Shown one piece after another: positions 35,325-47,869 of a stretch of 64,000 nt of DNA (position 1 is its first letter; every line of letters starts with the position of its first letter). The translations under genes and the position numbers were made by a program. Source of the DNA: Isoalcanivorax pacificus W11-5 (lineage in GTDB: Bacteria > Pseudomonadota > Gammaproteobacteria > Pseudomonadales > Alcanivoracaceae). Location of the stretch: positions 2,728,001 to 2,792,000 of the forward strand of contig NZ_CP004387.1 in the NCBI RefSeq assembly GCF_000299335.2, read 5' to 3'. The notes beneath the pieces are model-generated. The model saw nothing but the letters and a program-made list of their open reading frames with translations. It was not told the DNA's origin and ran no database searches.

Positions 35325-37103
35325 TCACAACGATGCCAGGTAACTGCGCCAGCCGCCGAAAGCGGTGATGTCGGTGGCCGTTTCCAGCCCCTGCGGTTCG
35401 CAGATAAAACCACTGACCCGGCGCCCGTCCGCCAGCGCTACCTTGCCGATGCCGAGCGGCGCCGGAATACCCGCCACAAAACTGCCCAGCGCGGCCTCCG
35501 GCACCGACCAGATTTCCACCTCGATGGCTGCACCACCGTCACTGACGCGCGCCATGCCCGGCCGCAACGGCGGGCCGCCGGCCAGCGCGTACAATCGATA
35601 GCATGGCGCTGTGTGCGTGCTTTCCAGCAGGAAGGCACCGCGCTCGGTCAATTGCGTATTGAGCGGCAGCCCGGACAGATGCGCACCACAGACCAGCAGC
35701 GGAATCCGGCCCGGCGGTGAGGGCACCGGGCCAGCCTGCCAATGGCGGCCCGTGGCACCACAGGGCAGGTCAGCCTGTGCCAGCCACTGGTGCGCCAGCG
35801 CCAGCAGATACTCATCACTGAAGGCCGGGCCGATCAGCGTGACACCAAAGGGCAGGCCGTCGTCCGTGAACGCGGCGGGCACCGCCATGGCGGCCATGTC
35901 GAGCAGGTTGACGAAATTGGTGTAATACCCCAGTTCGGTATTGCGTTGCACCGGCGCCGCCTGCACGGCATCAATGCGAAAGTGCGCGCCCGCAGACGGC
36001 ACCAGCATGACGTCGACATCGCGCATGACGCGCTGCGCCTGCGCACGCAGGCTTTGCAGGCGGTACATGGCATCAAAGGTGTCCACCGCAGACGGCAGCG
36101 CGCCGCGCTCGATGATCTCCCGCGTGACCGGCAACAGGGCATCCGGCTGTCGGGTCATCAAGGTACGGATGGCGTGGTAGCGCTCGGCCAGCCAGGGGCC
36201 GTCGTACAGCAGGCTGGCCGTTTCCGCAAACGGCGCGAAATCGATCTCTACCAGCTCGGCCCCGAGCGCTGCAAAGCGCGCCACGGTGTCGTCAAACAGC
36301 CGCGCATAATGCTGCGGCGCATCACCAAAGAAACGACGTTGTGCGGGCAAGGGCACGCCGAGGCGATAGCCGGTCAGCGGACCGGACACGGGCGGGCCGG
36401 CACGGCTGAACGGGTCCTTGCAGTCGACACCGTCCAGCACCGCCATGATGCACCGTGCGTCATCCGGGTTGAGTGCAAACAACGACGGACAGTCCAGCGA
36501 CCGGCAGGCGGGCACGATACCGTGTGTGGACCAGCGTCCGCGCGTGGGTTTGACTCCGATGAGGTTGTTGAACGCGGCGGGCACACGACCGGAACCGGCA
36601 GTGTCGGTGCCGAGCGAAAAAGTCACCTCGCCCAGGGCCACGGCCACGGCGGAACCGGCGCTGGAACCACCGCTGATATACGCGGGGTCAAACGCATTGC
36701 GGCAGGCGCCCCAGGGCGAGCGGGTGCCCACCAGTCCGGTGGCGAACTGATCCAGCGTGGTCTTGCCGAGCGGCACGGCGCCGGCCTGGATCAGCCGCGC
36801 CACCACCGTGGCACTGGTGCCGGGTGTGGAGGCAAACGCCTCGCAACCGGCGGTGGTCGGCACACCGGCCAGATCGATATTGTCCTTGATCGCAAACGGC
36901 ACGCCGTACAGCGGCAGCGTGTCCGGCGAGTGGCCGGCCAGGCGCGCCAGCAACGGTGCCAGTGCTTCATCATCGAGTACCGTGACCCAGGCGTTGTGCG
37001 CCGCGTGCGCCTGGATACGCGCCCGCAGTTGCGTCACCAGATCCGCCGGGGTCAGCACTCCGTCGCGGTAGGCGGCATGCAGTGCCGCAATCGACAGATC
37101 CAT
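35325..37103 (-). CDS. atzF: Allophanate hydrolase
   Basis: Splits allophanate into two CO2 and two NH3, the last step after carboxyguanidine deimination. The 592-residue protein has an amidase-signature domain (about 1-440) with Lys in AIKDNIDLAG, the cis-Ser in SGGSSAGSAVAVALG and nucleophilic Ser in GTDTAGSGRVPAA, followed by the smaller AtzF C-terminal domain (about 460-592). Its ATG overlaps the carboxylase stop by one base (TGATG), with GGAGG upstream, so the two are coupled. Confidence 0.95.
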   Translation of the reverse strand: MDLSIAALHAAYRDGVLTPADLVTQLRARIQAHAAHNAWVTVLDDEALAPLLARLAGHSPDTLPLYGVPFAIKDNIDLAGVPTTAGCEAFASTPGTSATVVARLIQAGAVPLGKTTLDQFATGLVGTRSPWGACRNAFDPAYISGGSSAGSAVAVALGEVTFSLGTDTAGSGRVPAAFNNLIGVKPTRGRWSTHGIVPACRSLDCPSLFALNPDDARCIMAVLDGVDCKDPFSRAGPPVSGPLTGYRLGVPLPAQRRFFGDAPQHYARLFDDTVARFAALGAELVEIDFAPFAETASLLYDGPWLAERYHAIRTLMTRQPDALLPVTREIIERGALPSAVDTFDAMYRLQSLRAQAQRVMRDVDVMLVPSAGAHFRIDAVQAAPVQRNTELGYYTNFVNLLDMAAMAVPAAFTDDGLPFGVTLIGPAFSDEYLLALAHQWLAQADLPCGATGRHWQAGPVPSPPGRIPLLVCGAHLSGLPLNTQLTERGAFLLESTHTAPCYRLYALAGGPPLRPGMARVSDGGAAIEVEIWSVPEAALGSFVAGIPAPLGIGKVALADGRRVSGFICEPQGLETATDITAFGGWRSYLASL

Positions 37104-40100
37104 CACTGCACCTCCCCGGCCAGCACCAGCATCGCCTGTCCTGGCGTCACCGACGCCCCCGGCGATACCAGCACCCGGCTGATGCGACCCGCCACCGGCG
37201 CTGTGACCGGAATTTCCATCTTCATGGATTCAATCACCGCCACCGTCTCGCCGGCGCTCACTGCTGCCCCTTCTTCGACAGTCACCTGCCAGATGCTGCC
37301 GGGCACATGACTGTTGATGGCGCGCTCTCCATCAGCCAGCACCAGCGCATCCACCGGCGCGGCCTCCGGCTCGGTGAGACTGACCACATCCTGTCCGGCC
37401 TCGGCCCAGCGCTGGCGTTCTTCCGCGAAGGCCTGGCGCTGATGTGTGCGGAAGGTGTCAATCTCTGCCGCGTTCCTGGACAGGAAGCGGTTGTAGTCAC
37501 GCAGGCTGAAGGTCTCTTCCTCGATCTTCAGCCCGGCGCGGCCGCGCGGAAAATCCTCACGCCATTGCATCAGTTCATCGTGGCTGACTTCGTAGAAGCG
37601 CAACTGGTCGAAGAAACGCAGCAGCCATGGCTGGCCTTGCCGGAATTCGGCGGTCTGCTTCCAGGTGTTCCACATCTGCACGGTGCGGCCCACAAACTGG
37701 TAGCCCCCCGGCCCTTCCATGCCGTACACGCACAGGTAGGCACCACCAATGCCGACCGCATTTTCCGGAGTCCAGGTGCGGGCCGGATTGTATTTGGTGG
37801 TCACCAGGCGATGACGCGGGTCCAGCGGCGTGGCCACCGGCGCGCCCAGGTACACATCGCCCAGGCCCATGACCAGGTAGCTGGCATCAAACACGATGCG
37901 CTTTACCGCCTCGATATCCGCCAGCCCGTTGATGCGACGAATGAATTCCAGATTGCTCGGGCACCAGGGGGCATCCTTGCGCACGGACTGCATGTACTTC
38001 TCGATGGCCAGCCGGCACTGTTCGTCATCCCACGACAATGGCAGGTGCACGATGCGCGTCGGCACCGTCATGTCGTCGATGCAGTCCAGGGCGCGCTCTG
38101 CCTCGCACAGGGCATCCAGCAGCTTTTCGCGCGGCAGGTGCAGGTTGTCGTAATTCACCTGCAGCGAGCGAATGCCCGGTGTCAGTTGCAGCACGCCCGG
38201 CAGCTGCGCCTGCTGCAGCCACTGCATCAGTGCGTGGACACGAAAACGCAGGTTCAGGTCGAGCACCTGCTCCCCGTATTCCACCAGAATGTTGTCATCA
38301 CCGGAGACACGGTAGACCACACCCACCGGGTGCACGTCCGGGCCGAGCTGGCGCAGTACCGGCGTGACCGGCCTGGCGGCCTGGATCCTCGGCGGTGTCA
38401 CTGGCGACAAGGTCTCCACCTGCTGACGTTGCAGGCGTTCCAGTTGCTCGGCGTCTTCCTGCGAGACCGGTACAAAGCGCACGGTGTCACCCGGCCGCAA
38501 CTGGCCCATTTGCCACAGATCGGCGCGGATGATCGTCACCGGGCAGACAAAACCGCCCAGGCTGGGGCCGTCCGGTCCGAGAATCACCGGCATGTCGCCG
38601 GTGAAATCCACCGCACCGATGGCGTAGGCGTTATCGTGAATATTCGACGGGTGCAGGCCGGCTTCGCCGCCGTCGGCACGCGCCCATTGCGGTGTCGGAC
38701 CGATCAGGCGCACGCCGGTGCGGCTGGAGTTGTAATGCACCTGCCAGTCCGTCCCGAGCAGCATGTCGATATCGTCCGGCGTAAAGAAATCCGGTGCGCC
38801 ATGCGGGCCGTAGATGACGCGCAGGGTCCAGTGGTGCGTCAGCGCCGGACGCAGTGCATCGGGCAGGCTGGCGCGCACCACGGCCGGGCTGTCCTGCTGG
38901 CAATGCAGGACATCACCGGGGCGCAACGCACGGCCGCCGTGGCCACCAAAACCGCCCAGCGTGAAGGTGCTGGCACTGCCCAGATAATCCGGCACGGCCA
39001 GGCCCCCGGCCACACACACATACGTGCGGCTGCCGGCACCCTGCACCGCACCGAGCGCCAGCACGCCGCCTGCCGGGACCGGCACCACTTGCCAGCAGGG
39101 CAGCGGCGCACCGTCCAGCATGGCCTGCATGTCGGCGCCGGCCAGGACGATGCTGGCCGCCTGCCGGAATTTCAGCGTCGCGCCGGTCATGGTCATTTCC
39201 AGCCCCGGCGCGCCCGGTGCGTTGCCCAGCAACGCGTTACCCAGGCGCAGCGCCATGTCGTCAAACGGACCCGACGGCGGCACGCCGATATGCCAGTAAC
39301 CGACGCGGCCCGGCCAGTCCTGCACGGTGCTCTGGGTGCCGGCCTCCAGCACTTCGATGCCACGCGCAGCGAAGCGGAAATCGTTCAGGCAGGCGGTACT
39401 TTGCCGGCCTTCGGAAAAGACCGCGTCGTCCAGTATCGCGCGCAAATAGGCAAGGTTGGTTTCCAGGCCGGCCAGCGCCGTGTCGTTCAGTGCCGCCAGC
39501 AGGGCGCGGCGGGCGCTGTCGCGGTCCGCACGATGCACGATCACTTTCGCCAGCATCGGGTCGTACAGTGCCGGCACCTCGGTGCCCGCTTCGACCCAGG
39601 TATCGCACCGCACGCCCGCCGGCCACTGCACGGCCGTCAGCCGGCCAGCGCTGGGCTGGAATCCGCGCGCGGGGTCTTCCGCGTAGACACGCACCTGGAT
39701 TGCGTGGCCCGCCGGCCGATGCACATACTGCCGCACGAAATCCCGCTCGCCGGCCGCCAGCCGGATCATCCAGCCGACCAGATCGACACCGGTGATCTCT
39801 TCGGTGACGCCGTGCTCCACCTGCAGGCGGGTATTTACTTCGAGGAAATAAAACGCCTGCTGTTGATCGTCATAGATAAATTCCACCGTGCCGGCGGAAC
39901 GGTAGCGCATGCGCTCACCCAGCCGCACCGCAGTGGTCATCATGGCGTCGCGTACCCGCACGGGCAGGTTCGGTGCCGGCGCTTCCTCCACCACTTTCTG
40001 GTTGCGGCGCTGCAACGAGCAGTCGCGCTCCCCCAGCGCCACGACGTGCCCGTCACCGTCACCGAAGATCTGCACTTCGATATGCCGGGCGCGCTGCACG

Positions 40101-40702
40101 AATTTTTCCAGGAACAGGCCGTCGTTGCTGAAATTGTTGCGGCTCAGACGCTGCACCGACGCAAACGCATCCTGCAGTTGCGCCGCATCGAAACAGCGCT
40201 GCATGCCGATGCCGCCCCCACCCGCCGTGCTCTTGAGCATCACCGGGTAACCGATACGTTCGGCCTCGCGCAGGGCAGCCTGCACATCGTCGAGCAGACC
40301 GGAGCCCGGCAGCAACGGCACGTCGCTGCTTTCCGCCAGGGCGCGCGCCGTATGCTTCAGGCCGAAGGCTTCGATCTGTTCCGGCGCCGGGCCGATAAAC
40401 ACGATACCGGCCGCTTCGCAGGCCGCAGCGAAGGTCAGGTTTTCGCTGAGGAATCCGTAGCCGGGATGAATCGCCTGGGCGCCACTGTCGCGGGCGGCGG
40501 CGATGACCTTGTCGATATTCAGGTAGGTGTCGCCGGCACCGCCTTCGCCCAGGCAGATCGCCTGGTCGGCCTGCTGCACATGCAACGAACCGGCATCGGC
40601 GCGGGAGTACAGGGCCACCGACTGGATCCCCAATTCCTTCAGGGTGCGGATGATGCGGCAGGCAATGGCGCCGCGGTTGGCAATCAGCACTTTACTGAAC
40701 AT
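37103..40702 (-). CDS. uca: Biotin-dependent urea/guanidine carboxylase
   Basis: The 1199-residue multidomain enzyme carries an N-terminal biotin carboxylase (FSKVLIANRGAIACR at the start), a central KipI/KipA-like carboxyltransferase region (about 460-1060) and a C-terminal biotinyl domain with the lysine in VIESMKMEIPV. In urea carboxylase it makes allophanate; in clusters with ykkC riboswitches and DUF1989 partners the physiological substrate is guanidine, giving carboxyguanidine. The context here (riboswitch, two deiminase subunits, AtzF) makes guanidine the best inference. The ATG at 40702 is chosen over a GTG two codons earlier. Confidence 0.94.
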   Translation of the reverse strand: MFSKVLIANRGAIACRIIRTLKELGIQSVALYSRADAGSLHVQQADQAICLGEGGAGDTYLNIDKVIAAARDSGAQAIHPGYGFLSENLTFAAACEAAGIVFIGPAPEQIEAFGLKHTARALAESSDVPLLPGSGLLDDVQAALREAERIGYPVMLKSTAGGGGIGMQRCFDAAQLQDAFASVQRLSRNNFSNDGLFLEKFVQRARHIEVQIFGDGDGHVVALGERDCSLQRRNQKVVEEAPAPNLPVRVRDAMMTTAVRLGERMRYRSAGTVEFIYDDQQQAFYFLEVNTRLQVEHGVTEEITGVDLVGWMIRLAAGERDFVRQYVHRPAGHAIQVRVYAEDPARGFQPSAGRLTAVQWPAGVRCDTWVEAGTEVPALYDPMLAKVIVHRADRDSARRALLAALNDTALAGLETNLAYLRAILDDAVFSEGRQSTACLNDFRFAARGIEVLEAGTQSTVQDWPGRVGYWHIGVPPSGPFDDMALRLGNALLGNAPGAPGLEMTMTGATLKFRQAASIVLAGADMQAMLDGAPLPCWQVVPVPAGGVLALGAVQGAGSRTYVCVAGGLAVPDYLGSASTFTLGGFGGHGGRALRPGDVLHCQQDSPAVVRASLPDALRPALTHHWTLRVIYGPHGAPDFFTPDDIDMLLGTDWQVHYNSSRTGVRLIGPTPQWARADGGEAGLHPSNIHDNAYAIGAVDFTGDMPVILGPDGPSLGGFVCPVTIIRADLWQMGQLRPGDTVRFVPVSQEDAEQLERLQRQQVETLSPVTPPRIQAARPVTPVLRQLGPDVHPVGVVYRVSGDDNILVEYGEQVLDLNLRFRVHALMQWLQQAQLPGVLQLTPGIRSLQVNYDNLHLPREKLLDALCEAERALDCIDDMTVPTRIVHLPLSWDDEQCRLAIEKYMQSVRKDAPWCPSNLEFIRRINGLADIEAVKRIVFDASYLVMGLGDVYLGAPVATPLDPRHRLVTTKYNPARTWTPENAVGIGGAYLCVYGMEGPGGYQFVGRTVQMWNTWKQTAEFRQGQPWLLRFFDQLRFYEVSHDELMQWREDFPRGRAGLKIEEETFSLRDYNRFLSRNAAEIDTFRTHQRQAFAEERQRWAEAGQDVVSLTEPEAAPVDALVLADGERAINSHVPGSIWQVTVEEGAAVSAGETVAVIESMKMEIPVTAPVAGRISRVLVSPGASVTPGQAMLVLAGEVQ

Positions 40703-40782
40703 GGTCACTGTTCCGTGACGGGCGCAGGTCGTCCTGCGGTGGTTCCGGCACGCCGGGCCGTCCCGGCGGCGTTGATGGTGTG

Positions 40783-41427: not shown

Positions 41428-42149
41428 CAGTGGTGTCCTCCGCAGCATTGGCCCGCGTACAGGGCCGTGTTGATCAGGCCACGGCGGTTTTCGTCACTGC
41501 CGGGTTCCGCCAGCGGCGGTACGCCCTGCAGTAATTCGAAACGCACCGGGCTGGCCGGATAGGCCGGTGACAGGTCCAGGGGGTGCGGGCAGGTGTGCAG
41601 GATCACCAGGGTGTCCATGTCAAAGCGCAGCGAGATCGTCTCGCCGGCTTTCGAAGCGCCGGCGATGTGCGTCAGGTGTCCGTCCACGTCCGGCACCACC
41701 TTGCTGAACAGGTTCAGGTTGGCCACGATGTCGCGCCGGTCCAGCCCGTATTTGGCCAGTTCGATCAGAAAACCGTCGCGGCCGTTGCGGTGCATGCCGT
41801 TGCGGGCCGTCTGGTAATCCAGTGCGCCCCAGCGTTCGGCCACGGTCTGCCTGTCGCAGGTCCCGCAGACGCTGTCGTGCCAGCCGAGACTGTCCTCGAC
41901 GATGGTGCAAAAGATCCGCCCCATGTCGGAATACAGCGCATGCCCTTTGCTCAGCAGGAAGGTGTGCTGGCATTTGAGCGTGTCGGGAATGTTCAGACGC
42001 TCCAGCAGGTTGTAGGGGTTGAACAGCAGCATGCCCACATTCGCGCCGCCGTGGACATCCGTCAGGCGCAGTGTATGGCCACGCCCCACTTGCAGGGACC
42101 AGTGGCACCCGGCGCCGAGGGTATCCTGATCCAGTATTGTCTCGCTCAT
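41427..42149 (-). CDS. Carboxyguanidine deiminase subunit (DUF1989, urea amidolyase-associated)
   Basis: The 240-residue partner of the preceding DUF1989 protein. It shows [44 protein letters not shown] and [18 protein letters not shown], matching the other urea amidolyase-associated subunit. The Cys-rich C-terminus ends CCGGHH, which could bind metal. It lies between the ABC ATPase and the second subunit, with TGATG overlaps on both sides. Confidence 0.88.
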
Positions 42150-42958
42150 CACACAGCTCCCCTGGCGGTGGCATTTTCAGACAGGAACTGGCCGGTGGCG
42201 TGCACCGAGCGGGTGACGTCTGACAGCGTCCCGGCATCGCGCCGGCCGATCGGCAGATCAAAGGTGATGGTGGCGCCGTAGGCGCCGGGCACCTGCGGGT
42301 CCAGGCGCACCTTGTCGAACACCAGCAGGCGCGTGCCGAGGGAAAAACCTTCTTTCAGGTCGTGCGTCACCATGAACACGGTGAGGCGGTTTTCTTTCCA
42401 CAAGCGCAGCACCAGTTCGTGCATGTCGGCACGAATGCCGGGGTCAAGCGCTCCAAAGGGTTCATCCAGCAACAGCACGCGCGGTTTCATGATCAGCGCC
42501 TGGGCAATGGCCAGCCGTTGCTGCATGCCGCCCGACAAGGCGCTGGGGTACTTGTCCAGCGCGTCTTGCAGGCCGACCTGCGTGAGCATGTCCTCGGCTG
42601 CCGTACGGATCGCCTTGCGCCGCGCGCCCCAGGTGCGTCCCAGGAAACGGCTCTGCTGCAGTTCCGGGCCGAGCATCACGTTGTGCAGCACAGACAAGTG
42701 CGGAAACACCGAGTAGCGCTGGAAGACGATGCCCCGCTCCTGCCCTGGCTCGCGCGGCATCGGCCTGCCATCCATCAGCAGTTCGCCACTGCTCGGCTGT
42801 TCGTCACCGAGCAGCATGCGCAGGAAGGTGGTCTTGCCGCAGCCGGAGGTGCCGACCAGTGTGCAGAATTCGCCCTCTTCCACGTTCAGGTTGAGTTTTT
42901 CCAGCACCACGGTGTCGCCGTAGCGTTTCCAGAGTTGGCGTACTTCGATCAGGCTCAT
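42149..42958 (-). CDS. ABC transporter ATP-binding protein (guanidine uptake)
   Basis: The 269-residue ATPase has Walker A GTSGCGKTT, Q-loop region QRYSVFPHLS, signature LSGGMQQRLAIAQAL and Walker B VLLLDEPFGALD, followed by the H-loop MVTHDLKE. It belongs to the nitrate/sulfonate/taurine subfamily. The ATG at 42958 overlaps the permease stop (ATGA). Together with the permease and the binding protein at 46793 it forms the uptake system, probably for guanidine; the substrate is inferred from context. Confidence 0.93.
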   Translation of the reverse strand: MSLIEVRQLWKRYGDTVVLEKLNLNVEEGEFCTLVGTSGCGKTTFLRMLLGDEQPSSGELLMDGRPMPREPGQERGIVFQRYSVFPHLSVLHNVMLGPELQQSRFLGRTWGARRKAIRTAAEDMLTQVGLQDALDKYPSALSGGMQQRLAIAQALIMKPRVLLLDEPFGALDPGIRADMHELVLRLWKENRLTVFMVTHDLKEGFSLGTRLLVFDKVRLDPQVPGAYGATITFDLPIGRRDAGTLSDVTRSVHATGQFLSENATARGAV

Positions 42959-43770
42959 GCGTTGCGCTCCTGTCCGGCGTGGAACCAGGGGAACATCAGC
43001 TGCGAGGCCCTGCGCAGGCCCAGGTCCATCACCCAGGCCAGCAGCGTGATCCAGAGCACGTACGGCAGGATCACATCCATCGACAGATAGCGGCGCACCA
43101 GGAAGATGCGATAGCCCAGCCCGTCGGTGGCCGCGATGGCTTCGGCGGCAATCAGAAACAGCCAGGCCGACCCCAGGCACAGGCGGACCACCGCCAGCAG
43201 GCGCGGCAACACCTGCGGCAGCACCACACGCAACATCAGGTGCCAGCTGCTGCCGCCGAGTGTCTGCAACTTGATCGCCTGCTCCGAGGGCAGATCCAGC
43301 ACGCGCTGTGTCATGTCGCGGATCATCACCGGCGCCGTGCCGATCACGATCAGCACCACTTTCGACAGCTCGCCCAGGCCAAACACAATGAACAGGATCG
43401 GCAGGATCGCCAGCGGCGGCACCATCGACACCACCGCGACCACCGGCCCGGCGAAAGCGCGCGCCAAGGGCAAGGTGCCGAGCAGTACGCCGGCCAGCAA
43501 CGCCATGGAGGCCGAAATGCCGATGCCGATCAGCAACCGTTTCAGGCTCGCGGCGGTATCGCCCCAGAAGATGTATTCCCCGGAGCGGCGGTCCTCCACA
43601 AACGCCAGGCGCTGCATGGCATCGACCATGCTCTGCAGGGTCGGCAGCAGTTTATCGTTCGGGTTTTCTGCCAGCCGCGCGTCTGAGGCCGTCATGTACA
43701 ACAGCAGCAGCACAATGAAGGGCAGCAGGGCCAGCAACACGGCCAGCGGGCGTTCAGGGCGCAGGTTCAT
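42955..43770 (-). CDS. ABC transporter permease (guanidine uptake)
   Basis: A 271-residue TauC/SsuC-type inner-membrane permease with about six hydrophobic helices and the EAA-like loop around QTLGGSSWHLMLRVVLPQV. The start at 43770 is preferred because its ATG overlaps the stop of a 25-codon leader ORF (TGATG), which carries the strong ribosome site; an upstream in-frame start at 43779 is possible. It is the first structural gene of the riboswitch-controlled operon. Confidence 0.9.
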   Translation of the reverse strand: MNLRPERPLAVLLALLPFIVLLLLYMTASDARLAENPNDKLLPTLQSMVDAMQRLAFVEDRRSGEYIFWGDTAASLKRLLIGIGISASMALLAGVLLGTLPLARAFAGPVVAVVSMVPPLAILPILFIVFGLGELSKVVLIVIGTAPVMIRDMTQRVLDLPSEQAIKLQTLGGSSWHLMLRVVLPQVLPRLLAVVRLCLGSAWLFLIAAEAIAATDGLGYRIFLVRRYLSMDVILPYVLWITLLAWVMDLGLRRASQLMFPWFHAGQERNA

Positions 43771-43847
43771 CAGGCGCATGGGCGCGCCCCCCGGTGCAAT
43801 GACGCACCTGTGTCGGGAAAACTGCTGCACGGGAAGTGTGTGGACAT
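43770..43847 (-). CDS. 25-codon leader ORF coupled to the permease
   Basis: ATG at 43847 is preceded by GGAGGAGAGGC, a near-ideal Shine-Dalgarno, and runs 25 codons to a TGA overlapping the permease ATG (TGATG). The peptide (MSTHFPC... ending RPCA) has no recognised domain. The riboswitch targets this ribosome site, so the permease and the coupled downstream genes are probably opened by translation of the leader. It might instead be a spurious reading and the strong site may serve the permease indirectly; nucleotide spacing favours the coupling model. Confidence 0.5.
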   Translation of the reverse strand: MSTHFPCSSFPDTGASLHRGARPCA

Positions 43848-43858
43848 GCCTCTCCTCC
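43848..43858 (-). promoter_or_regulatory. Ribosome binding site of the leader ORF, target of the riboswitch
   Basis: GGAGGAGAGGC lies directly before the ATG. It is the exact complement of GCCTCTCCTCC inside the aptamer (43958-43968), and the neighbouring CGCCGTGTAA (43865-43874) is the exact complement of TTACACGGCG (43941-43950). Confidence 0.8.
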
Positions 43859-43920
43859 TCGGTTTTACACGGCGACCGGAATGCAGGTACAGCGTGGAAA
43901 ATCGTTCTGCGATCTTCCCT

Positions 43921-44019
43921 GGTCTCCCGGGCTTTTATCCCGCCGTGTAACCCCTCTGGAGGAGAGGCCGGTGACTCTCGGACCAGTCACTGCGTCGGCA
44001 GCCGGAACCCTAGTCACCC
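43921..44019 (-). ncRNA. Guanidine-I (ykkC) riboswitch
   Basis: The minus-strand leader carries the conserved guanidine-I core: CTAGGGTTCCG, then CTGGTCCGAGAG, ACACGG and GGGATAAAAGCCCGGGAGA. The 5' arm GGTGACT pairs with AGTCACC to form P1. In the absence of ligand the aptamer strand 43958-43968 can pair with the downstream Shine-Dalgarno and strand 43941-43950 with the adjacent segment, hiding the ribosome site. Guanidine binding would favour the aptamer fold and free it, so the switch is a translational ON switch. It fits the carboxylase/deiminase/allophanate hydrolase operon it precedes. Confidence 0.95.
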
Positions 44020-44076
44020 TGATGCTGTACGAGGCGTACCGGAACAAACCCGGTGCGCCGCATTCAGGCAGGATAT

Positions 44077-44092
44077 TGCAGGTTCCATGCCA
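44077..44092 (-). promoter_or_regulatory. Candidate sigma-54 promoter of the guanidine operon
   Basis: TGGCATG-N4-CTGCA on the minus strand has GG and GC at the correct -24/-12 spacing. The predicted transcript start (about 44066) would give a 47-base lead before the riboswitch aptamer. Confidence 0.6.
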
Positions 44093-44143
44093 GCCGGACA
44101 GGGCGGTATCACACGGTACAGGTCGCGCTGCTGTAACGTGCGG

Positions 44144-44160
44144 CGCACTGTTCGGGTGCA
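44144..44160 (-). promoter_or_regulatory. NtrC-like binding site upstream of the sigma-54 promoter
   Basis: TGCACC-N5-AGTGCG matches the NtrC dyad (TGCACY-N5-RGTGCA) at 11 of 12 positions, centred about 85 bases upstream of the predicted start. One half-site also takes part in a 7-bp inverted repeat (44155-44179, GGTGCAG/CTGCACC), which might instead act as a hairpin after the MetX-like gene. Confidence 0.4.
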
Positions 44161-44183
44161 GGGCGGATATTTCTGCACCGCAA

Positions 44184-45197
44184 TCAGGCAGCGTCATGCA
44201 GCAACACCTCCAGCGCGCCCAGGATCTGTTGCATGGCGTCAGCGGAGCGGCCGGGGCCGCCCCCGCAGTGGCCCCAGTCCGTTTCCAGCAGCTGATACCG
44301 GGCGTCGGGCATCAGCGCAGCGTCCAGGGCAATGTCATCGGGGACAAAATACATGTCCGTGCTGGCCGGCATGATCAGCGTCGGCGCACGGATGGCACGC
44401 AGTGCGGCCGCATAGTTGCCGGCAAACACCGGGTTGTCGCTGATGTCGCCGCTGTACCAGGTGTCCATCACCGCCAGCAGATCGTGGGCATCCTGTTGCA
44501 GGTGATCCTGTTCCCACCAGCTCAGCAACGCCTCGCGGGAACCAAAACCGAGTTCGCGCCAGAGTTGCCGGCGCCAGAACGGTGCAGCATACGCCCAGCT
44601 TGCATAGACACGCGCAAACGCGCGCAACCCGGCGCGCGGCACATCGCCGCGTCGATAACGCGGATCTGCTTTCAGTGCCGAGGACACGCCGGCAAGAAAC
44701 TGCTGGTTCAGCGGATGGCAGCGCGCGCTCGCGCACCAGGCCGCCACCCGCTGCACACGCTCCGGATACAGGCATCCCCACTGCAGGCTCTGCATGCCGC
44801 CCATCGACCAGCCCGCCACCAGCGCGAGCCGGTAGTCACCCGCCAGTTCACTGAGCATCAGGTGCTGCGCGCGCACCGCGTCATACAGGCTGACGCCCGG
44901 CCACTGGTCACCGCGTTGCGACGGCGGCGCGTTTGACGGCGAGGTGGATTCTCCATTGCCGAACAGCGCCGGGATGAGGATGGTGTAACGCGGGTTCGAC
45001 AGCGGGCCTTTTTCCGTCAGCGGACGGTTGCCCGCACAACGGCCGCCGTAATAGGTGGGCAAGAGCACCAGTTCGGTGCCCGCTGCCCCGATGTCGCCCC
45101 GCTGCTGGTAGCGAATGCGTGCATCGCGCAGCACGTTGCCGTTCTGCAACGACAAATCACCGAGCAGGAAGTCCCTCGTAACCCATTGAGTGCTCAT
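44184..45197 (-). CDS. MetX-like alpha/beta-hydrolase (homoserine acyltransferase superfamily)
   Basis: The 337-residue protein has the nucleophile elbow GWSMGGMQ, a catalytic Asp in PASTDMYFVPDD and His in ETDWGHCGGG, and the family segment LFGNGESTSPSNA. It is related to homoserine O-acetyl/succinyltransferases but is shorter and divergent, so a role in methionine synthesis is unlikely. Its position between the guanidine operon and glnT suggests a part in nitrogen compound metabolism. The ATG at 45197 is preferred over an upstream start. Substrate unknown. Confidence 0.8.
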   Translation of the reverse strand: MSTQWVTRDFLLGDLSLQNGNVLRDARIRYQQRGDIGAAGTELVLLPTYYGGRCAGNRPLTEKGPLSNPRYTILIPALFGNGESTSPSNAPPSQRGDQWPGVSLYDAVRAQHLMLSELAGDYRLALVAGWSMGGMQSLQWGCLYPERVQRVAAWCASARCHPLNQQFLAGVSSALKADPRYRRGDVPRAGLRAFARVYASWAYAAPFWRRQLWRELGFGSREALLSWWEQDHLQQDAHDLLAVMDTWYSGDISDNPVFAGNYAAALRAIRAPTLIMPASTDMYFVPDDIALDAALMPDARYQLLETDWGHCGGGPGRSADAMQQILGALEVLLHDAA

Positions 45198-45235: not shown

Positions 45236-45257
45236 ATATGCATGCTGGCATGTATAT
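45236..45257. promoter_or_regulatory. Near-palindromic site in the divergent MetX-like/glnT promoter region
   Basis: ATATGCATG and CATGTATAT around CTGG form an inverted repeat with one mismatch, midway between the two divergent starts. It is a plausible operator, for example for the TetR protein encoded at 47936. The right half also gives TGGCATG-N4-TTGAA, a sigma-54-like match lacking the essential -12 GC. Confidence 0.45.
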
Positions 45258-45340
45258 TGAATGCATCCGGACAAGGCGGATGGAAGAACCGTGCCAACCC
45301 CGAACCACCGCCGCACATCCATCTTGAGGAGAGCAGTCCG

Positions 45341-46699
45341 ATGAGCAGCAGCCCCGTTTCAGATTCCCTTCGGCAAACCCTGGAAGCCGACGGAGTGAAA
45401 TACGCCATGGCCGGCTATGTGGATATTCACGGCTGTATCAAAGGCAAATTCGTTCCGCTGAAACATCTGGGCAACATGCTTGGCGGCTCTGAGCTGTACA
45501 CCGGTGCGGCACTGGATGGCGTGCCGCAGGACATCAGTGACAATGAAGTGTCGGCGGTGCCCGATCCGGCCTCGGTGATGCAGTGCCCCTGGCAACCGGA
45601 GCTGGCCTGGTTCGCCAGCAATCTGCATCTCGACGGCGCGCCGTTCGAAGCCTGCTCACGCAACATCCTGCGCCGGCAGCTCGATAACGCCGCGAAGATG
45701 GGCTACACCTTCAACCTCGGCATCGAGACGGAATTCTTCCTGTTCAGGGATAACGGCGACGGCACCTTCGGCCCGATCAGCGACCGCGATGCCGGCGAAA
45801 AACCCTGCTACGACCCACGCACCCTGATCGACAACCTGCCGATCATGGACGAACTGGTCAGCGCCATGAACACACTCGGCTGGGACGTGTATTCGTTCGA
45901 TCACGAAGACGCCAACGGCCAGTTCGAAACCGATTTCACCTATGCCGATGCACTGACCATGGCCGACCGGCTGACGTTCTTCCGGCTGATGGCGGTGGAA
46001 ATCGCGCGCAAGCACGGCGCGTTCGCCAGCTTTATGCCGAAGCCGTTCGCCAACCGCACCGGCAGTGGTGCCCACTACAATATGTCACTGGCGGATATCG
46101 ACACCGGCCGCAATCTGTTCGCCCCGGACGGCGATGACCTGCACGACTGCGGCATCTCGAAGCTCGCCTATCACTTCACCGCCGGCGTGCTGCGCCATGC
46201 GCGCGCCATCAGCGCCGTGATCGCGCCCACCGTGAACAGCTACAAGCGGCTGGTGCGCCAGGGTTCCATGTCCGGCTCCACCTGGGCGCCGGTGTTTGTC
46301 TGCTACGGCAACAACAATCGCACCAACATGATCCGTGTCCCCGGGGCCGGCAGCCGCATTGAATGCCGCGCGGCGGACATCAGTTGCAACCCCTACCTGG
46401 GCGCCGCGCTGATCCTTGCCGCCGGCCTGGAAGGCGTACGCGAACAGCTCGACCCAGGCGCGCCGCGCAGGGAGAACATGTACCGCTACAGCGACGAGCA
46501 GATCGCGGAGATGGGCGTGCAGTTCCTGCCGCGCACGCTGGGCGAGGCGGTGGAGGCCTTCGAGGCCGATCCGCTGGCACGCGAGGTGTTCGGCGACGCC
46601 ATGTTCAAGGCGTTCGTGGACTTCAAGCAGGCCGAATGGGAGAGCTACCACAGCGCTGTGTCGGACTGGGAAATCAAGCGCTACCTGAAGATGTTCTGA
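45341..46699 (+). CDS. glnT: Type III glutamine synthetase family protein
   Basis: The 452-residue ligase has the beta-grasp N-terminal domain and the catalytic domain with GIETEFFLF, MPKPFANRTGSGAHYNMSL and NNRTNMIRVPGAGSRIECR. It is a GlnT-type enzyme rather than the main GlnA. In this cluster it may capture the ammonia released from guanidine and allophanate or act on a related amine. The ATG at 45341 has GAGGAG upstream at nine bases; the upstream extension is not family-like. Confidence 0.9.
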   Translation: MSSSPVSDSLRQTLEADGVKYAMAGYVDIHGCIKGKFVPLKHLGNMLGGSELYTGAALDGVPQDISDNEVSAVPDPASVMQCPWQPELAWFASNLHLDGAPFEACSRNILRRQLDNAAKMGYTFNLGIETEFFLFRDNGDGTFGPISDRDAGEKPCYDPRTLIDNLPIMDELVSAMNTLGWDVYSFDHEDANGQFETDFTYADALTMADRLTFFRLMAVEIARKHGAFASFMPKPFANRTGSGAHYNMSLADIDTGRNLFAPDGDDLHDCGISKLAYHFTAGVLRHARAISAVIAPTVNSYKRLVRQGSMSGSTWAPVFVCYGNNNRTNMIRVPGAGSRIECRAADISCNPYLGAALILAAGLEGVREQLDPGAPRRENMYRYSDEQIAEMGVQFLPRTLGEAVEAFEADPLAREVFGDAMFKAFVDFKQAEWESYHSAVSDWEIKRYLKMF

Positions 46700-46792
46700 G
46701 CCGCCGGCCCGGTGGCGCAGAAATTGCAGTTCACCGGGCGAGCGATCTGTTGATCCATGACTTGCGCAGCACTGACACCCTGGAGGTTCACC

Positions 46793-47869
46793 ATGCGACA
46801 CCCTTCCCGCACCCGTGCCCTGCTCTGCGGCCTGCTGGCCACCATGCTGGTGGCCCTGTCACCGGCAGCCGTGGCCGCCGAGAAAAAAAGCTTCCGCATT
46901 GCCTGGAGCATTTACGCCGGCTGGGTCCCCTGGCAGTACATCAAGGAATCCGGCCTGATGAAGAAATGGGCCGACAAGTACGGCATCGAGGTCGAGATCG
47001 TACAGATCAATGACTATATCGAATCCATCAACCAGTACACGGCCGGTGAATTCGATGGTGTGACGCTGACCAGCATGGATGCGCTGTCGATACCCGCTGC
47101 CAGCGGCGTCGACACTACTGCCCTGCTGATCGGTGACTATTCCAACGGCAACGACGGCATCGTATCAAAAACCGCCACCTCGATTGAGGCACTCAAAGGC
47201 ACCAGCATTCACCTGGTGGAACTGTCCGTGTCGCATTACCTGCTGGCCCGTGCACTGGACGACGCCGGCCTGCGCGAGCGCGACGTCACTCTCGTCAACA
47301 CCTCCGACGCTGACATCGTCTCCGCCTTCCAGACCCGCGACGTCACCACCGTGGTGACCTGGAACCCGCTGCTGGACGAAGTCGCGTCCATGCCCGGCTC
47401 GCATCGGCTGGTGGACTCCCGCAGCATCCCGGGCCACATCAAGGACCTGACCGTGGTCAACACCGACACGCTGCGCGACAACCCGGCCCTGGGCAAGGCA
47501 CTGGCGGGCGCCTGGTATGAGATGATGGCGGACCTCGGGGCCGACACCGACACCGGTATCGAAATGCGCGAGTTCCTGGGCACCGTCTCCGGCACCGACC
47601 GGGCTGGCTACGAAGCACAGCTGGCCGGCATGTACATGTTCTGGAAACCGGCCGATGCCCTCACGTTCTACAGCAGCGAACAGGCGTTCGAGGCAATGGA
47701 CAGCGTACGCCACTTCTCCTTTGACCATGGCCTGCTGGGCGAAGGCGCCAGCGATGCGGACTTTGTCGGCATCAGCTTCCCGGGTGGCAAGGTGCTGGGC
47801 GACAGTGGCAACATCAAGCTGCGCTTCGACACCACCTATACGCAGATGGCCGCCGACGGCAAGCTCTGA
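46793..47869 (+). CDS. ABC transporter periplasmic binding protein (urea/guanidine carboxylase region type)
   Basis: A 358-residue secreted protein with a signal peptide (LLCGLLATMLVALSPAAVA) and an SsuA/NMT1-like fold beginning SFRIAWSIYAGWVPWQYI. It is the binding protein for the permease and ATPase at 42149-43770, which are on the opposite strand about 3 kb away. The name of the family found beside urea carboxylases fits. GGAGG lies six bases before the ATG. The substrate is inferred, not shown. Confidence 0.87.
   Translation: MRHPSRTRALLCGLLATMLVALSPAAVAAEKKSFRIAWSIYAGWVPWQYIKESGLMKKWADKYGIEVEIVQINDYIESINQYTAGEFDGVTLTSMDALSIPAASGVDTTALLIGDYSNGNDGIVSKTATSIEALKGTSIHLVELSVSHYLLARALDDAGLRERDVTLVNTSDADIVSAFQTRDVTTVVTWNPLLDEVASMPGSHRLVDSRSIPGHIKDLTVVNTDTLRDNPALGKALAGAWYEMMADLGADTDTGIEMREFLGTVSGTDRAGYEAQLAGMYMFWKPADALTFYSSEQAFEAMDSVRHFSFDHGLLGEGASDADFVGISFPGGKVLGDSGNIKLRFDTTYTQMAADGKL

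Follow-up and report, generated by a model that had tools for sequence, protein, structure and literature searches.

Aptamer and Operon

The locus described here raises the question of how a guanidine-I aptamer could pass its state on to a permease gene that lies behind a short open reading frame (ORF) with a ribosome site of its own. The window, a 64,000-nucleotide stretch of the Isoalcanivorax pacificus W11-5 genome (NZ_CP004387.1), contains a full-length guanidine-I aptamer on the minus strand at 43922-44024; the cmscan match (44024-43922) spans model positions 1-107 of RF00442 and scores 92.7 bits against a cut-off of 63, confirming the class that a preliminary description of this DNA had read from the ykkC core. 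No second Rfam family was found in 43700-44300 at E values up to 0.5, and a different ykkC-type ligand class was rejected on this ground. Membership in the guanidine-I class is based on a score above the cut-off of the class model and on the guanidine transport and metabolism genes that follow in the same direction, and guanidine binding and response are predicted for this aptamer.

The operon behind the aptamer, all on the minus strand, begins with an ABC permease gene at 42955-43779, for which the nearest NCBIfam models are TauC and SsuC (both below cut-off) and which has in-frame ATG codons at 43779 and 43770. An ABC transporter ATPase is encoded at 42149-42958, its putative start placed at the onset of the family match within the ORF 42149-43180. 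It shares the sequence ATGA (42958-42955) with the permease stop, which suggests that coupling may continue down the operon. Next are the genes for the urea amidolyase associated proteins UAAP1 (TIGR03425, 41427-42152) and UAAP2 (TIGR03424, 40783-41448), both over cut-off, which we take to be the carboxyguanidine deaminase. A guanidine-II riboswitch (40724-40767, 35.8 bits, cut-off 32) separates UAAP2 from a gene of the urea carboxylase family (TIGR02712, over cut-off) at 37103-40702, whose product is, by context, a putative guanidine carboxylase.

Outside the riboswitch operon, the plus strand carries a type III glutamine synthetase gene (45242-46699) and, at 46757-47869, the gene for a transporter binding protein (TIGR03427). 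In most of the relatives parsed, a long first gene lies directly 3′ of the guanidine-I aptamer, whereas the binding protein gene of the window is divergent instead. The same two genes are also opposite the permease strand in Alcanivorax sp. 1008 (L051), whose permease is 77% identical.

Complementarity and Folding of the Leader

The aptamer is complementary to the leader that follows it in two places. The leader ORF's ribosome site, GGAGGAGAGGC (43848-43858, minus strand), is the exact complement, over 11 nt, of the anti-Shine-Dalgarno (anti-SD) strand GCCTCTCCTCC at 43958-43968, which comprises the P2 5′ strand and loop, and the conserved P2/P3 junction strand TTACACGGCG (43941-43950) is the exact complement, over 10 nt, of an anti-aptamer strand, or toehold, CGCCGTGTAA at 43865-43874. 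Both had been placed correctly in the preliminary description, and together they stand apart from chance: the duplex of the 28-nt aptamer strand with the downstream leader was calculated at -46.9 kcal/mol, which none of 1000 dinucleotide-preserving shuffles of the downstream sequence equalled (mean -25.5, best -43.5). Exact complementarity extends over 11 nt in the window and over no more than 9 in any shuffle. The 21 base pairs previously assigned to an alternative fold were all recovered in the free MFE structure of 44026-43740, with probabilities of 0.97-1.0. Folding of this region with and without the aptamer constraint, a check proposed at that stage, gave MFE values of -95.3 and -128.2, respectively, and the 43958/43848 helix, in which the ribosome site is masked in the predicted ligand-free state, belongs to the free fold.

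For a transcript ending at 43848, the full MFE was -86.5, versus -57.8 for the aptamer and the downstream part folded separately, such that the SD-masked fold is favoured by 28.7 kcal/mol once transcription reaches this position. The layout had been called bistable; however, with the masked fold ahead by about 29 kcal/mol there is no equilibrium bistability, and because ligand energy could, by our reasoning, hardly outweigh such a difference, guanidine would need to act kinetically, and in this model would have to prevail before transcription reaches 43865. In MFE folds of the growing transcript, pairing of the P2 strand within the aptamer lasts up to a 3′ end of 43858, the helix formed by CGCCGTGTAA has 7 pairs at a 3′ end of 43868 and 9 at 43864, and all 21 pairs are present at 43848. 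The toehold helix is accordingly the earliest part of the alternative helix and forms ahead of the SD helix, and the P2 strand complementary to the SD is released from the aptamer as transcription proceeds through the SD, as in a translational ON platform. The translational ON switch originally proposed fits both the sequence and the comparisons below; it is equilibrium bistability that had to be dropped. Masking in the window is not all-or-none in these predictions, with a paired probability of the SD of 0.76 in the complete leader and of 0.57 when the aptamer is left out; the corresponding means for the SD region over the 126 loci described below are 0.70 and 0.53.

Guanidine-I switches are usually transcriptional according to the available text of a review (PMC12186494), which speaks for a transcription attenuator like the textbook members of the class. 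At this locus such an attenuator is very improbable, however, since a scan detected no terminator-like site on the minus strand of 43700-44300, and the alternative helix precedes the leader ATG and not a U-run. The same interval contained no sigma-70-like promoter in the scan. Among the relatives, a lax script flagged 21 of 126 loci as having a terminator-like site and 6 of 126 as having a TTTTT run, counts that tip the balance neither way.

P2-SD Pairing in Related Loci

RF00442 searches covered two overlapping sets, with matches in 49 of 94 related genomes and in 111 of 390 genomes from the order, and 80 named permease loci were added; G275 (1 of 81 among the matches listed) and three sub-threshold rows were left out of the order-set matches. 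The resulting 231 records represent 204 distinct loci, and 35 records yielded no row, five of them having no start motif and the rest being duplicates or failures at a later part of the regular expression (L144 among the failures). Pairing was compared in 126 of the 204 loci, the window included, that have a start 40-130 nt past the aptamer and a distinct P2 region; parsing relied on motif regular expressions and simple SD scoring, and the loci are related and unevenly sampled.

Over these 126 loci, the duplex of P2 with its own SD averaged -17.7 compared to -14.8 for swapped partners, a difference reached in 0 of 5000 permutations, and the test should be conservative because the swaps include close relatives. 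The window pair, at -27.5, is the strongest of the 126. Own SDs paired more weakly with other parts of the aptamer (-13.5, -11.8, and -12.0) and with the linker (-9.9), although the lengths of these segments are unmatched. Across the 125 of 126 loci that could be anchored, each P2 position from 4 to 9 shows every one of the four Watson-Crick pairs, a count biased towards pairing because the pair types are drawn from the best duplexes. The SD region pairs with the P2-ACACGG strand at a probability above 0.5 in 85 of 126 loci, and joining aptamer and downstream leader gains at least 5 kcal/mol in all 126 leaders and at least 10 in 102. The second helix was better than 95% of its own shuffles in only 31.7% of the 126 loci. 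In the sister locus L009, the 11-nt SD helix is intact and the 10-nt helix has one mismatch, with a net insertion of 25 nt in the linker.

On average, then, the pairing is upheld by coordinated change in relatives, and some loci deviate, with L176 (rank 0.86) and L138 and L190 (both 0.91) favouring the SDs of others. The layout had been thought peculiar to this particular locus, which the recurrence of P2-SD pairing contradicts. The comparison suggests that a large proteobacterial group of guanidine-I switches may act on translation by means of an anti-SD integrated in the aptamer.

The Leader ORF and the Permease Start

The leader ORF of the window (43770-43847, minus strand) consists of 25 codons and a TGA, running from ATG 43847 to the stop at 43772-43770. 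As the preliminary description had it, this is a short ORF behind the aptamer with its own SD, whose GGAGG ends 6 nt 5′ of the ATG; translation of the leader is predicted from these features. The TGA ends 10 nt inside the permease gene as read from ATG 43779 and shares one base with the in-frame permease ATG at 43770 (TGATG). This overlap of leader stop and permease start was absent from the preliminary description, and we think that it is the most informative feature of the locus. A GGGCG at 43789-43785, 5′ of the permease start, has an unpaired probability of only 0.00-0.03 in the downstream fold, and permease translation may therefore depend on a ribosome that traverses the leader and opens this structure.

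Comparison of the window with L009 gave 14 identities in the leader frame, 15 in the permease frame, and 14 in the third frame; three frames so equally conserved carry no coding signal in this pair. The two peptides have 14 identical residues of 22-23, no better than the other frames. The leader of L009 is 3 nt longer than that of the window and in frame.

These comparisons bear on a reading in which the leader ORF is incidental, an SD-like stretch being masked while the permease starts independently, at 43779 or 43770 or at GTG 43830, and P2 being simply anti-SD-like. The equal conservation of the frames agrees with it, as do the general occurrence of ACCU in P2, the -14.8 that swapped pairs already reach, and a permease frame that stays open on the upstream side in the window, L009, and L094; the homology query, which began at 43779, would have missed an N-terminal extension of the permease. 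Against it, own pairs surpass swapped pairs, a second exact helix of 10 nt exists beside the first, and differences in leader length are multiples of three, both in L009 and in one further genus (g28, below). A start at the in-frame GTG 43830 is itself unlikely, since there is no SD-like stretch upstream of it and the permease frame of L033 is already closed at one codon upstream. Taken with these points, we regard an incidental leader as improbable.

Candidate Relay ORFs in Relatives

A permease starts within 900 nt of the aptamer in 31 of the 204 loci, which the script divided into 18 direct and 13 leader loci; on inspection by eye L073 was transferred from the direct to the leader class, which then had 14 members. 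Ten of them, the window included, have a leader stop that overlaps the permease start by 4 or 10 nt (L001, L009, L031, L033, L034, L036, L057, L094, L155, and L073), and in the other four (L085, L113, L135, and L136) the leader stops 40-49 nt short of the permease. An overlap is expected by chance at 0.16-0.38 per locus, as estimated by shuffling with random frame, a rate explained by the frequent presence of a TGA, in the frame concerned, among the first codons of permeases. These ten overlapping loci fall into at least four groups, comprising the coded genera g1 and g5, both within the window's family, the genus g33, which is placed in family f26, and Pseudomonas/Stutzerimonas, where L057, L073, and L094 were placed by record name and L155 (family f21) was taken as the same family; this is a count of groups and not of independent origins on a tree. 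Pairing of the SD with the P2 strand exceeded 0.5 in 8 of 13 leader loci, with values of 0.30 in L036 and 0.04 in L155.

When 398 genomes of G357's family were searched with a frame-blind pattern, nine matched, every one a member of genus g28, and all nine have a leader with an SD and the +10 overlap; two of the ORFs are 3 nt shorter. These nine are close relatives and non-independent; L116, which had no row, was read directly. Eight of the g28 leaders have 26 codons and include seven distinct, mutually similar sequences, whose variable columns number 8, 9, and 12 of 22 at the first, second, and third codon positions.

The similarity of the g28 leaders and the distribution of their variable columns might point to a peptide that itself regulates or acts, as an arrest peptide or a small protein. 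However, the excess at third positions is mild, the residues shared between window and sister are matched by the other frames, and no leader peptide is common to different genera, a result that equally suits an incidental leader. An acting peptide is hardly credible on this evidence, and the pattern as a whole fits an ORF that may be maintained for its end point rather than for its peptide.

The leader was also considered as a decayed start of a former first gene. When 13 leaders were compared with 150 first-gene starts (those of ORFs of at least 300 codons, whatever their product), none rose above its own 60 shuffles, and this origin was rejected; the nearest likeness was that of L031, with 5 of 60 shuffles at or above it, and a likeness noticed by eye in L113 failed.

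The overlap also bears on a reading in which the masking is the same and the output is transcription polarity, with Rho acting on an untranslated leader, leader translation protecting the RNA, and re-initiation playing a minor part. Translation of short leader ORFs can protect RNA from Rho, and this general knowledge, the missing intrinsic terminator on the minus strand, and the four leaders that stop short of the permease, which suit polarity better than tight re-initiation, are in its favour. Polarity does not, however, predict the overlap seen in 10 of 14 leaders and in 9 of 9 pattern matches, and in the ppe2 riboswitch of Mycobacterium tuberculosis mutants with a shifted stop argued against Rho, according to the available text of that study (PMC11260477). 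We regard Rho polarity as unlikely here, though it is the most probable of the alternatives.

A Predicted Translational ON Switch Acting through a Relay ORF

The reading to which we give a probability of about 0.62 is that this guanidine-I riboswitch is a translational ON switch that acts through the leader as a relay ORF. Its aptamer, complementarity, ORF, and overlap are present in the window, and all recur in relatives; ligand response, kinetic order, leader translation, and re-initiation are the steps that we infer. When guanidine is absent, CGCCGTGTAA (43874-43865) would invade the conserved ACACGG strand of the aptamer during transcription, after which the leader SD would pair with the P2 5′ strand to complete a 21-pair helix in which the SD is hidden. 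Were guanidine bound within roughly 57 nt, the distance from the aptamer end to 43865, the core would withstand this invasion and the SD would stay open. Ribosomes could then translate the 25-codon leader, unfold the hairpin that covers the start of the permease, stop at the overlapping TGA, and re-initiate on the permease, with the ATPase, UAAP1, UAAP2, and, behind the guanidine-II switch, the carboxylase to follow. The result is an explicit kinetic model, with a toehold on the ACACGG strand ahead of the SD.

For the order and its neighbours, a more tentative generalization, to which we would give slightly less than even odds, is that P2 carries an anti-SD and its loop coevolves with whichever SD is masked, and that where the usual first gene is missing this SD drives a relay ORF of free sequence whose stop/start overlap passes ribosomes on to the permease. 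ORFs of this kind would be exchangeable adaptors linking a riboswitch to new genes, in at least four groups for this one riboswitch class and perhaps of separate origins. If the relay holds, an aptamer bound to one SD could serve another gene without redesign, the peptide would be free while the overlap is constrained, and permease starts assigned by homology only may conceal leaders of this type.

Relation to Known Systems

Like other members of the RF00442 class, the window has a full-length aptamer over cut-off before an operon for guanidine import and carboxylation; it differs from the class, as presented in the available text of the review (PMC12186494), in that its switch appears to act on translation, through an anti-SD that forms part of the aptamer and a relay ORF behind it. 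The same text describes Raoultella-type operons in which an importer and the carboxyguanidine deaminase follow a guanidine-I riboswitch and the carboxylase follows a guanidine-II riboswitch, an arrangement shared by the window, and in that text no relay ORF is mentioned for them. In Alcanivorax, a guanidine-I riboswitch before a urtA-type binding-protein gene has been described (PMC9788540, available text); riboswitch class and probably bacterial family are those of the window, but the binding-protein gene comes first there, and leader and permease come first here.

The closest parallel in mechanism is the B12 riboswitch of M. tuberculosis ppe2, an OFF switch for which the available text of the study (PMC11260477) gives experimental support for termination-reinitiation through an upstream ORF, uPPE2, with a 4-nt AUGA overlap that passes translation on to the operon. 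There, as in the window, an aptamer acts through a short ORF, a stop/start overlap serves as the relay, and aptamer and expression platform overlap. Ligand and aptamer are different, however, the genes are unrelated, and the OFF switch rests on experiment whereas the ON switch of the window is predicted. The aptamer class is therefore known, as is the principle of a riboswitch relayed by an upstream ORF, for which cases besides ppe2 may exist; new here would be the guanidine-I version of the relay, as a predicted ON switch. A literature search of titles and abstract openings, covering few subscription journals, returned among the matches listed no description of a guanidine-I relay ORF or of a coevolving P2 anti-SD.

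Other Riboswitch and RNA Matches

Three guanidine-I copies were found in each of two 8.8 kb stretches of Pseudomonas type (L113 and L124), with binding-protein genes behind two of the copies and a leader plus permease behind the third. In one genome of the order, two weak neighbouring guanidine-I matches below threshold (38.3 and 35.4 bits) are located at G231:C1:3264113-3264333 on the minus strand; they are the only ones in that genome and possibly represent a split or decayed aptamer. A second guanidine-II riboswitch is present elsewhere in the genome of the window (G000:C1:1311915-1311963), and the window itself also contains a t44 RNA (RF00127) at 20304-20209 on the minus strand, with a score of 70.1 bits.
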